Assembly (NCBI GenBank): GCA_030739585.1
Contig: JASLYX010000010.1
Location: forward strand, 1 to 34,332
Length of the DNA stretch: 34,332 nucleotides
DNA from: Candidatus Bathyarchaeota archaeon
GTDB taxonomy: Archaea; Thermoproteota; Bathyarchaeia; TCS64
Reading direction: 5' to 3'
The notes under the pieces were generated by a model. It worked only from the letters and a program-made list of their open reading frames with translations, had not been told where the DNA came from and searched no databases. Below are positions 12,523 through 15,378 of the stretch, piece after piece. Each line of letters opens with the position of its first letter. Within the stretch, counting starts at the first letter, position 1. The translations under genes were made by a program, and so were the position numbers.

Positions 12523-13067
12523 GCCTCAGATGAAAGATGATTTTACAGCCGATTTTAAAAAACCTCGATACTTCCCTTATTTCTACATCTTTAAAGCGTA
12601 CATTTATCCTACAATTAAGGATATAAACGCTGTCTGAAACCTTTTCAGCTGGCTCAATTATCGTGCGCGACCCTAGTAAAAGATATTGTAACCAGTGAAC
12701 TGTTTTACTTCTCCTTAATTCTAATTATAACCTTCATCCATTATTAACAAGGGAGATTCAAAATGTGCCTAATTTTCTAAAATAAATGTCAATATATCAA
12801 GAATAAGCATCTTCAGAAACCCTCAAAGGTGGAAAACACGGTCGAGCAAAACCTTAGATCGTACGCGGAAAATGGAGTCCCAGTTATTGCTAGATATACC
12901 ATGCTAATTAAGCAAATTCTTTTCTTCATTTGTCTCATTTTTCACGAGTGTGTTATTGTTTATTTTACACTCTTCAAACAAATAGTATTCAACCAATCAA
13001 AGCGTTTATCACATACGATATGTTTTAATCAGAGCCTGAAAGTTGTTATTTGCATCTGAGGGATTTC
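12523..13067. other. AT-rich intergenic region, no confident gene
   Basis: Very AT-rich, with several T-runs that could end transcription of the radical SAM gene. A weak frame from GTG 12829 starts hydrophilic (VEQNLRSYAENG) and then becomes a low-complexity Phe/Ile/Lys/Val stretch, so it is probably non-coding or a decayed fragment. GAGGGAT at 13058-13064 is the ribosome-binding site of rpoP. Confidence 0.4.
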
Positions 13068-13256
13068 ATGGACGAACAAGGAAACACTAACGATCCTGAA
13101 CTAAAAAGTGGCCCAGACTACGAGTGTGTCCGCTGTGGCCGTCGGGTCAATTTCAAGGAGCTAGAAGAATACATATCGTTTCGATGTCCGTTCTGTGGAT
13201 ATCGCATATTTCGGAAGGTGCGGGCCCCCATCGTGAAGCACCTAAAAGCGAGATAG
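13068..13256 (+). CDS. rpoP: RNA polymerase subunit Rpo12 (RpoP/Rpb12 homologue)
   Basis: A 62-residue zinc-ribbon subunit of archaeal RNA polymerase that bridges Rpo3 and the large subunits. It has Y-E-C-V-R-C-G-R-R, then R-C-P-F-C-G-Y-R-I, giving the C-x2-C...C-x2-C zinc site, and ends with the basic K-V-R-A-P-I-V-K-H-L-K-A-R tail typical of Rpb12-type subunits. The ATG at 13068 is chosen over TTG 13050 because GAGGGAT lies 3 nt upstream. The 19-residue acidic N-terminal lead is longer than usual. The rpo5-like gene starts 13 nt downstream, so the two are probably co-transcribed. Confidence 0.95.
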   Translation: MDEQGNTNDPELKSGPDYECVRCGRRVNFKELEEYISFRCPFCGYRIFRKVRAPIVKHLKAR

Positions 13257-13268
13257 GACTGATCTACC

Positions 13269-13811
13269 GTGTCTAGGAAAGCGAAATCTGACGAAGAAAA
13301 GCGAGCAAACCTAATTCTAAAGTATAGGAATCTCAAAGTCAAGAAACGTGAACAAGAAGATCAGACAATAACTTACAATCTCAGCCGAGGCGAGGAGACA
13401 TTTGTTATGCAGATTCTCATCAACCAGAAAACCATTGGAATAGCCTTCATTCGGGAGCTCCGAGACCTTGTCGTGGAGGCTGAAGCTACAAAGGGAATCA
13501 TGGTGGGCGGTGGCAAATACACTTATTCGGCTAAGGCCAATGCGCCAAAGCTAAATGTGGAGTTGATACCTCCCTCCTTACCCACGTTCGATCTCTTTAT
13601 GCATAAGTACGTCTCTAACGCCGAGCTCGTTACCGAGGAGGGCAAGAAGGCACTAATGGAAAAGTACCACTCCGAGCTATACAAATACCCACGGATAAAG
13701 TTTAGCGACCCCGTTGCAATAATACTTGGAGCCGAACCAGGAGACGTAATCCAGATAAATCTAGAAAGCCAGACCGCAGGCACTTCAGTATCCTATCGCT
13801 ACGTCATATGA
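13269..13811 (+). CDS. Rpo5 (RpoH/Rpb5)-like RNA polymerase subunit with N-terminal jaw-like extension
   Basis: The C-terminal 72 residues are the Rpo5/Rpb5 assembly domain. They hold F-M-H-K-Y-V (Rpb5: I-T-E-H-E-L), then Y-P-R-I-K-F-S-D-P-V-A-I-I-L-G-A, G-D-V-I-Q-I, and the ending T-A-G-T-S-V-S-Y-R-Y-V-I. Known archaeal Rpo5 proteins are only about 80 residues; this one is 180. Residues 43-108 align by eye with the latter part of the eukaryotic Rpb5 N-terminal jaw: I-G-I-A-F-I-R-E-L matches V-G-I-K-T-I-K-x-Y, and K-G-I-M-V-G-G-G-K-Y-T-Y-S-A-K matches R-A-L-I-V-V-Q-Q-G-M-T-P-S-A-K. The first 42 residues are basic and charged, and shorter than the eukaryotic jaw start. The gene sits next to rpoP rather than at the usual rpoB operon. 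Confidence 0.85.
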   Translation: MSRKAKSDEEKRANLILKYRNLKVKKREQEDQTITYNLSRGEETFVMQILINQKTIGIAFIRELRDLVVEAEATKGIMVGGGKYTYSAKANAPKLNVELIPPSLPTFDLFMHKYVSNAELVTEEGKKALMEKYHSELYKYPRIKFSDPVAIILGAEPGDVIQINLESQTAGTSVSYRYVI

Positions 13812-13843: not shown

Positions 13844-14395
13844 TTAGTTCTGGATAAGCTTCTCGTACATTTTGTCTAAGGCCCAGCGTAAGCTGCTTTG
13901 GATCTCCCTAAGTCGCCTTTCGTCACCGAAATTCCTGATGGTGATACCTGTAATTCTATCGCTATCCGTTTCCACCTCGAACGATAGCACTTCCCCAAAT
14001 GGGGTCTCTCCTCCTGCGGCCTTTGCTTCATCCGTTGCCTTCATGTTTCCCAGTACTCTCTCGAGAAAGAATGCCTGGAAGGGGGGAATCGAGATAGTGA
14101 ACGCGAGGCTCTCCACGGGTTTGAACAAAATGATCTCATCGTCGATACGCATGTAACCCAGGGTCACACCATCCTTTGATTTTACAGATATTCCTTTGTC
14201 TTCACTATCTAGCTGGGTTTCAATCTTTGGTGGCACAGGATTTCGGAATCCCTGCCTAACAATGCTCCTGTCGATTTCTGCTATGGCTTTCCTCAGATCC
14301 CTAATTTCTCCTTCCAATTCCCGAATGTTATCATCTAAGTTTTGACGAATCTTCAGGAGTTTCCGCATCTCGTCTTCCCCGCTCACCATTACCAC
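13844..14395 (-). CDS. Conserved-looking protein with N-terminal coiled coil, unknown function
   Basis: 183 residues, not recognised. Residues about 8-48 (MRKLLKIRQNLDDNIREL and on) have a strong heptad pattern of Leu/Ile with Glu/Lys/Arg, predicting a coiled coil. The rest looks alpha/beta: S-K-D-G-V-T-L-G-Y-M-R-I-D-D-E, F-K-P-V-E, a hydrophobic F-Q-A-F-F-L-E-R-V-L-G-N-M segment, and I-T-G-I-T-I-R-N-F-G-D-E-R-R-L. No Cys cluster, membrane segment or signal peptide. GTG 14395 and ATG 14389 are both possible starts. It converges on the rpo5-like gene with 32 nt between the stops, and is divergent from pyrF. A structural or adaptor role is only a guess. Confidence 0.7.
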   Translation of the reverse strand: MVMVSGEDEMRKLLKIRQNLDDNIRELEGEIRDLRKAIAEIDRSIVRQGFRNPVPPKIETQLDSEDKGISVKSKDGVTLGYMRIDDEIILFKPVESLAFTISIPPFQAFFLERVLGNMKATDEAKAAGGETPFGEVLSFEVETDSDRITGITIRNFGDERRLREIQSSLRWALDKMYEKLIQN

Positions 14396-14508: not shown

Positions 14509-15378
14509 ATGCTAGGCCAAGGCTTCGTGAAGAGATATTATGAGCTAAGTAGGGAGAAGCAGAGCTTCCTTTGCGTTGGGCTTGACCCTGTCACTTCTAA
14601 AATGAGAGATAAATACGTGATTCCCTCGAAGCTGATCGAATATCATGGGGTAATTGAAGGAACCAAAAAGTTTTGCCTCGACGTGATCAAAGCCGTCGCT
14701 CCCTATACCCCGATAATAAAGCCTAATGCCCAATTTATCCTCTACACATTTTCCTTCCAGGACCTCAGGGAGATCGTTGAGGCAATTCACGATGGGGGGT
14801 GTCTTGCCCTCTTAGATATCAAATTTTCTGACATTGGATCCACGAACTCTGCGGGCCTCCACTGGATAACCGATGCAGGGTTCGACGCGGTCACCTTCAA
14901 TCCATTCCCGGGGTATGAAAACGGAAGCGACGCCATATATACCTGGGCTAGAGAGAGGGACAAGGGGATATTCAGCCTATGCCGGATGTCCAATCCTGGG
15001 GCCCACGATTACATGTCTCAGACAGTGGGCGGGGAGCCACTCTATCTAAAGCTTGCCCGTGACGCCGCGGCTCATGGGTGCAATGGATTTGTGGTTGGAT
15101 GTACTGCATCCACTGAGCTAGGGGAAATCAGATCAATTATAGGGGAGGAGCGTTTGATCCTGTCCCCTGGGCTGGGGCCTCAGGGAGGCGATCCAAAGAC
15201 AGCCCTCGAGTGCGGCTCCAACGGCAATGGGGATGGTCTTATAATATCTTCATCAAGGGCAATCAACTTTGCATATGAATCTTTTGCCTGGGATTGGGTG
15301 CGGTTTGCCGAGGCTGCTGGGGCCCAAGCCTTAAGAAAACGTGATGAACTAAATGAGATAAGGAGACAGTTGATCTGA
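14509..15378 (+). CDS. pyrF: Orotidine 5'-phosphate decarboxylase
   Basis: Last step of UMP synthesis. 289 residues, longer than the common 210-240-residue archaeal PyrF, which puts it in the long (type 2, mycobacterial-like) family. It has L-C-V-G-L-D-P near the N-terminus and the catalytic D-x-K-x-x-D motif in L-L-D-I-K-F-S-D-I-G (D103, K105, D108). V-T-F-N-P-F-P-G-Y-E-N and S-N-P-G-A follow, and near the C-terminus L-S-P-G-L-G-P-Q-G-G-D is the phosphate-binding loop (P-G-I-G-x-Q-G-G in relatives). Monocistronic start at ATG 14509; the por operon follows after 61 nt. Confidence 0.95.
   Translation: MLGQGFVKRYYELSREKQSFLCVGLDPVTSKMRDKYVIPSKLIEYHGVIEGTKKFCLDVIKAVAPYTPIIKPNAQFILYTFSFQDLREIVEAIHDGGCLALLDIKFSDIGSTNSAGLHWITDAGFDAVTFNPFPGYENGSDAIYTWARERDKGIFSLCRMSNPGAHDYMSQTVGGEPLYLKLARDAAAHGCNGFVVGCTASTELGEIRSIIGEERLILSPGLGPQGGDPKTALECGSNGNGDGLIISSSRAINFAYESFAWDWVRFAEAAGAQALRKRDELNEIRRQLI

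Follow-up and report, generated by a model that had tools for sequence, protein, structure and literature searches.

The archaeal RNA polymerase subunit Rpo5 (RpoH) has been described as an assembly domain only, and the additional jaw of its counterpart Rpb5 has been called eukaryotic (PMC2675907, PMC3906176, PMC6690254). The Rpb5 jaw has itself the fold of a restriction enzyme without the catalytic residues (PMC551604), and the TPSA motif of Rpb5 contacts downstream DNA (PMC6690254). In Sulfolobales, the place partly filled by the Rpb5 jaw in eukaryotes holds an archaeal addition near Rpo5, Rpo13 (PMC2675907). Rpo13 is unrelated, a helix-turn-helix protein that forms a subunit of its own, whereas the jaw described here is a domain of Rpo5.

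Unlike these assembly-domain-only subunits, the extended Rpo5 of Bathyarchaeia carries about 100 additional conserved residues. We consider it likely that it is a genuine Rpo5 with an added Rpb5-type N-terminal jaw, a housekeeping subunit that holds downstream DNA. Its occurrence across a large and abundant archaeal class breaks the assembly-domain-only rule, and because such a large archaeal group carries it, the statement that the jaw is specific to eukaryotes needs correcting. Among open-licence full texts, none was found that reports an archaeal Rpo5 with a jaw, and its novelty is thus not proven. A survey of archaeal polymerase subunits from May 2026, which includes Bathyarchaeota, treats Rpo6 and Rpo8 forms and makes no mention of a long Rpo5 in those of its passages that were searched (PMC13257274).

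An extended rpo5 beside rpoP

The window, that is the whole stretch of 34,332 nucleotides analysed here, belongs to a genome of Candidatus Bathyarchaeota archaeon (Bathyarchaeia) of 1.69 Mb, in 28 contigs and 95% complete. It contains an open reading frame with a GTG start (Table 1), which is a genuine gene and encodes the RNA polymerase subunit Rpo5. Rpo5 and rpoP are probably part of the same operon. The initial annotation had placed the gene next to rpoP and away from rpoB, and this was confirmed, as the single rpoB of the genome is found on another contig (C4, the window's being C10). It had also proposed to look for a normal short rpoH beside rpoB, and no recognisable one was found there. 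Because this rpoB (L240:3232-6549, minus strand) has no rpoH before it, and no long open reading frame on the same strand in the approximately 3.2 kb after it, the rpoH-rpoB-rpoA operon usually present seems to be split in this genome. A genome-wide search with PF01191 gave one match, the extended protein. Being the only Rpo5 found in this 95% complete genome, it is therefore not a second, variant Rpo5, as had been suggested.

Table 1. Coordinates of the extended rpo5, its domains and key codons, and neighbouring genes in the window
Feature	Position	Strand	Remarks
rpoP (Rpo12)	13068..13256	+	12 nt upstream of the extended rpo5; start uncertain, TTG at 13050 or ATG at 13068
Extended rpo5 (rpoH), 180 aa, two domains	13269..13811	+	No second Rpo5 found in the genome
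Jaw-like N-terminal domain (residues ~4-104) with an inactive restriction-endonuclease-like fold	13278..13580	+	RPB5 profile matches, Mrr_cat, model
Codon of Arg20	13326..13328	+	Invariant in 126/126 Bathyarchaeal jaws; aligns with Arg26 of yeast Rpb5 (DRGY)
Codons 48-50 (Q-I-L)	13410..13418	+	Where Mrr nucleases have their catalytic [E/Q]-x-K
Codons 85-89 (T-Y-S-A-K)	13521..13535	+	Aligns with T-P-S-A of Rpb5 (yeast 117-120)
Assembly domain of archaeal RpoH type at the C terminus (residues 106-180)	13584..13808	+	PF01191, sequence identities
183-residue protein with N-terminal coiled coil	13844..14395	-	Tail to tail with rpo5; no Pfam or NCBIfam family above cut-off
OMP decarboxylase, pyrF_sub2 subfamily	14509..15378	+	TIGR02127 above cut-off; not the usual archaeal pyrF type

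An archaeal assembly domain and an Rpb5-like jaw

The C-terminal part of the protein is plainly recognizable, with PF01191 (RNA_pol_Rpb5_C) matching residues 108-179 at an E-value of 1.7e-18. This assembly domain has 48% identity to Rpo5 of P. furiosus and 31-37% to eukaryotic Rpb5. For the extended proteins as a group, the identities were 48-67% to archaeal (P. furiosus) and 31-55% to eukaryotic subunits, and in every comparison with plant, human and yeast the archaeal subunits were nearer, apart from near-ties with Sulfolobus. By homology, the domain would dock on Rpo1 as in all archaea. With the short Rpo5 of P. furiosus, S. acidocaldarius and the short-form Bathyarchaeia, the extended protein has in common the assembly domain, PF01191 and the status of sole Rpo5. 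In contrast, the short form lacks a jaw and is encoded beside rpoB, while the jaw-bearing gene adjoins rpoP (in its order) or is found elsewhere.

The likeness of the N-terminal part to the Rpb5 jaw had first been proposed from an alignment of residues 40-108 by eye, and two kinds of search uphold it. With phmmer, residues 51-179 align continuously with the Drosophila and human RPB5 chains, and residues 56-178 with the yeast one. A profile of the N domain, from which the assembly domain had been cut off, had eukaryotic RPB5 as its nine best matches in the PDB (E 3.4e-5 to 0.46), aligned over about residues 50-118 of RPB5. The likeness is beyond chance, because letter-shuffled sequences scored at most 11.6 bits with the jaw profile, against 14.4-23.5 bits for five real eukaryotic jaws. 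The Pfam family of the eukaryotic jaw, PF03871 (RNA_pol_Rpb5_N), has no match in the window protein. It found none in 257 genomes of the class either, in a search for which the control genomes also stayed without a match and which, having no positive control, is uninformative.

An AlphaFold2 model of the extended Rpo5, built with 22 relatives, reached a pLDDT of 93 and a pTM of 0.84, with most of the N domain at a pLDDT of about 96. In a Foldseek search of the PDB, the first 34 matches were RPB5-type chains (E down to 1e-13), followed by jawless archaeal RpoH and then by the restriction enzyme MspJI (E 0.009). The predicted fold thus has the structural match to the Rpb5 jaw whose absence would have refuted the initial proposal. 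Because the TMq of about 0.8 spans approximately 203 columns, both domains superpose together on RPB5, and their mutual placement is predicted to be as in Rpb5; AlphaFold2 had RPB5 structures in its training, which makes this placement less than fully independent.

In the same order as in eukaryotic RPB5 (RPABC1; yeast Rpb5, PDB 1DZF and 1I50 chain E), the two domains of the Bathyarchaeal protein thus give a predicted fold that superposes over both. Common to the jaws of the two groups are the inactive restriction-endonuclease-like fold, the arginine of an R-G-Y motif, a V-G-[IV] helix start and, at the position of the RPB5 TPSA, a T-x-[SA]-[AV]-[KR] motif. The threonine and the small residues of the latter are kept in Bathyarchaeal jaws, and its proline is replaced by tyrosine, histidine or glutamine. 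R20, G57, T85 and E98 are nearly invariant among them. Besides the replaced proline, the Bathyarchaeal protein differs from RPB5 by its archaeal-type assembly domain, by not matching PF03871, and by a shorter jaw (about 100 residues versus about 140), which lacks the long loop that follows R-G-Y in RPB5.

Distribution and gene order in Bathyarchaeia

All relatives of the extended Rpo5 are recorded as Bathyarchaeota or Bathyarchaeia, or under older names of the group. We gathered 126 distinct jaw-bearing Rpo5 proteins, all from Bathyarchaeia and from many families. Accordingly, the jaw extension is conserved across most of the families sampled and is neither random nor unique to the genome of the window, either of which would have refuted the initial proposal. 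In a search of 60 relatives, the N domain was covered by all 31 matches from the window's order (families f1-f3, best per genome), and also by matches from six further families. PF01191 found an Rpo5 in 223 of the 257 genomes of the class. Among the matches listed, the frames had about 180-200 residues in families f1-f3, f8, f9, f11, f13, f14, f18 and f22-f27, and about 85-136 residues in families f4-f7, f10, f12, f16, f17 and f19-f21. For 249 genomes of the phylum, again among the matches listed, frames outside the class had at most 138 residues, and those of at least 180 were all within it. The N-domain profile, searched in 398 genomes of the phylum, revealed Rpo5 jaws solely in Bathyarchaeia; its matches outside the class had the frames and scores of other restriction-endonuclease-like proteins (four were read). 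No genome with both a long and a short Rpo5 was seen among the entries inspected.

The two forms differ in their gene neighbourhood. Wherever a short Rpo5 locus continued far enough, rpoB was directly downstream, including in a Methanofollis and in other classes, with the exception of one locus (L243), in which the rpoB search had no match. In contrast, rpoB was beside the extended rpo5 in none of more than 100 loci. In the window's order, almost every locus has the extended gene after rpoP, and outside this order a search with the rpoP of the window had no match near the extended gene.

In the RpoB tree, the window's order branches first in the class, and extended and short lineages are interleaved. 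A single origin of the long form along this tree, with its families as one clade, was rejected (AU p 0.026). The jaws of the Bathyarchaeal Rpo5 and their stand-alone relatives, on the other hand, form one clade in the jaw tree (99/99). We infer a single emergence of the jaw-bearing gene, early in the class and outside the rpoB operon, after which lineages kept either this or the short gene. The scattered occurrence of the long form is probably best explained by a jaw-bearing copy that existed early on next to the short gene, with one of the two lost later, or by transfer within the class.

Additional copies were observed as well. In some relatives from the family of the window, the jaw-bearing Rpo5 gene is present two or three times (also L041 and L044). 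Both extra copies of genome G001 (L045:5958-6494 and L046:5999-6541) are near a ribosomal protein L35Ae-like gene and have T-W-S-A in place of T-Y-S-A. Such copies are possible alternative polymerase subunits. A jaw-only open frame of 104 residues in genome G007 (L041:11473-11784, minus strand) and a copy with a broken frame in genome G036 (L040:5990-6427, plus strand) are likely decaying.

Origin and function of the jaw

Profile comparisons relate the jaw both to Rpb5 and to Mrr-type restriction endonucleases. In HHalign, for which the sets differ in depth, the Bathyarchaeal jaw reached 91% (score 41) with the eukaryotic jaw and 98% (score 73) with Mrr, and the eukaryotic jaw reached 56% (score 29) with Mrr. 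With HMMs built on small sets, the eukaryotic jaw profile scored a median of 14.3 bits on the 126 Bathyarchaeal jaws (103 over 8 bits), versus 0.45 bits on 38 Mrr/iREase domains (3 over 8 bits), and shuffled sequences reached 8.0 bits. A tree of Bathyarchaeal, eukaryotic and Mrr domains (103 columns) left the eukaryotic jaw unplaced, on a branch of 2.8 changes per column.

An even chance can be given to two separate fusions, in which an inactive Mrr-type domain joined Rpo5 in Bathyarchaeia and, in a second and independent event, on the way to eukaryotes. The two jaws would then do similar work, but would not be the same inherited part. The greater nearness of the Bathyarchaeal jaw profile to Mrr than to eukaryotic jaws is consistent with this, as is the fact that, within Thermoproteota, jaw-bearing Rpo5 was observed in Bathyarchaeia only. 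Mrr and inactive restriction endonuclease domains are, moreover, common in these genomes. Furthermore, the short rpoH beside rpoB looks ancestral, because other classes and a Methanofollis locus have it as well as Bathyarchaeia, and it is this place that the jaw-bearing genes have left. Two fusions fit less well with the preference of the eukaryotic jaw profile for Bathyarchaeal jaws, or with the arginine before G-Y, which every jaw of either kind has and none of 39 Mrr/iREase domains. The same domain order, a linker of near-equal length and the same predicted orientation would also have to have arisen twice.

The profile preference and the shared arginine, together with the whole-chain structural match of the predicted model, are instead arguments for one origin, in which one jaw-bearing subunit was the ancestor of both eukaryotic Rpb5 and Bathyarchaeal Rpo5. 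This could have happened vertically with many losses, or through a transfer between archaeal lines before eukaryotes, and the need for either weighs against it. We regard one origin as a serious candidate that stays short of probable. A common clade of both kinds of jaws was not rejected (AU p 0.51, and 0.64 with the stand-alone paralogues included), but it is absent from the jaw tree too, which has few columns and a long eukaryotic branch. Tentatively, then, a jaw-bearing Rpo5 may have existed in archaea before eukaryotes, survive as the principal Rpo5 in most lineages of Bathyarchaeia, and share its origin with the eukaryotic jaw. If one origin is true, eukaryotes did not invent the Rpb5 jaw. 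The idea of a bridge between archaeal and eukaryotic subunits, raised in the initial annotation, is thus supported only in part: architecture and jaw similarity fit it, but the assembly domain is plainly archaeal, no other class of the phylum was seen to have the jaw on Rpo5, and the jaw tree is not decisive. The finding turns the origin of the Rpb5 jaw into a question, and Asgard genomes can answer it.

Irrespective of its origin, the jaw-bearing protein is the housekeeping Rpo5 and not an accessory paralogue, because most genomes with it show no short one. Its most likely role, by analogy with Rpb5, is that of a lower jaw holding downstream DNA. The jaw would steady this DNA during opening and elongation, and may have a regulatory role as a landing place for factors. 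The lack of a PF03871 match, the replaced TPSA proline and the training of AlphaFold2 on RPB5 count against the overall explanation of the protein as an Rpo5 with an Rpb5-type jaw. Bathyarchaeal Rpo5 offers a natural, simple system for testing the effect of the jaw on downstream DNA.

That the N domain could instead be an active nuclease riding on RNA polymerase, as a defence or processing enzyme, is very improbable. Pfam Mrr_cat (PF04471) is above the cut-off in the window protein and matches 27/27 N domains tested (best 2.8e-10), but 26 of the 27 also match NA-iREase1 (PF22722), a family of inactive restriction endonucleases. The lysine of the catalytic [E/Q]-x-K is missing in all 126 Bathyarchaeal jaws, and the preceding acidic residue is mostly lost in the alignment. 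This reading was therefore rejected, and since the lysine is missing, the restriction-endonuclease-like jaw would not be expected to cut DNA. From the Mrr-type and NA-iREase1 domains, with which it shares a fold family by profile, the Bathyarchaeal jaw differs in having lost the catalytic lysine, gained the arginine of R-G-Y and been fused to an RNA polymerase subunit. Both jaws, Bathyarchaeal and eukaryotic, are catalytically dead Mrr-type restriction-endonuclease-like domains.

That a eukaryotic Rpb5 gene was transferred recently, or that eukaryotic sequence contaminates the assembly, has only the architecture in its favor and can practically be dismissed, since the archaeal C domain argues against import and the gene occurs in many independent assemblies, several of which are a single contig, with archaeal neighbours such as rpoP. 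A virus-borne origin was rejected as well, as no relative came up when IMG/VR was scanned with the profile of the extended Rpo5.

The stand-alone relatives are a Bathyarchaeia family of 174-198 residues (L191 and L193-L199; e.g. L194:4919-5512, plus strand). They consist of a jaw-like inactive restriction endonuclease domain with the same arginine and, after it, a helical domain in which four cysteines are invariant and which takes the place of the assembly domain. Their best Foldseek matches, which are weak, were EndoMS/NucS and viral RPB5-like chains. This family could be a factor that competes with the jaw or mimics it.
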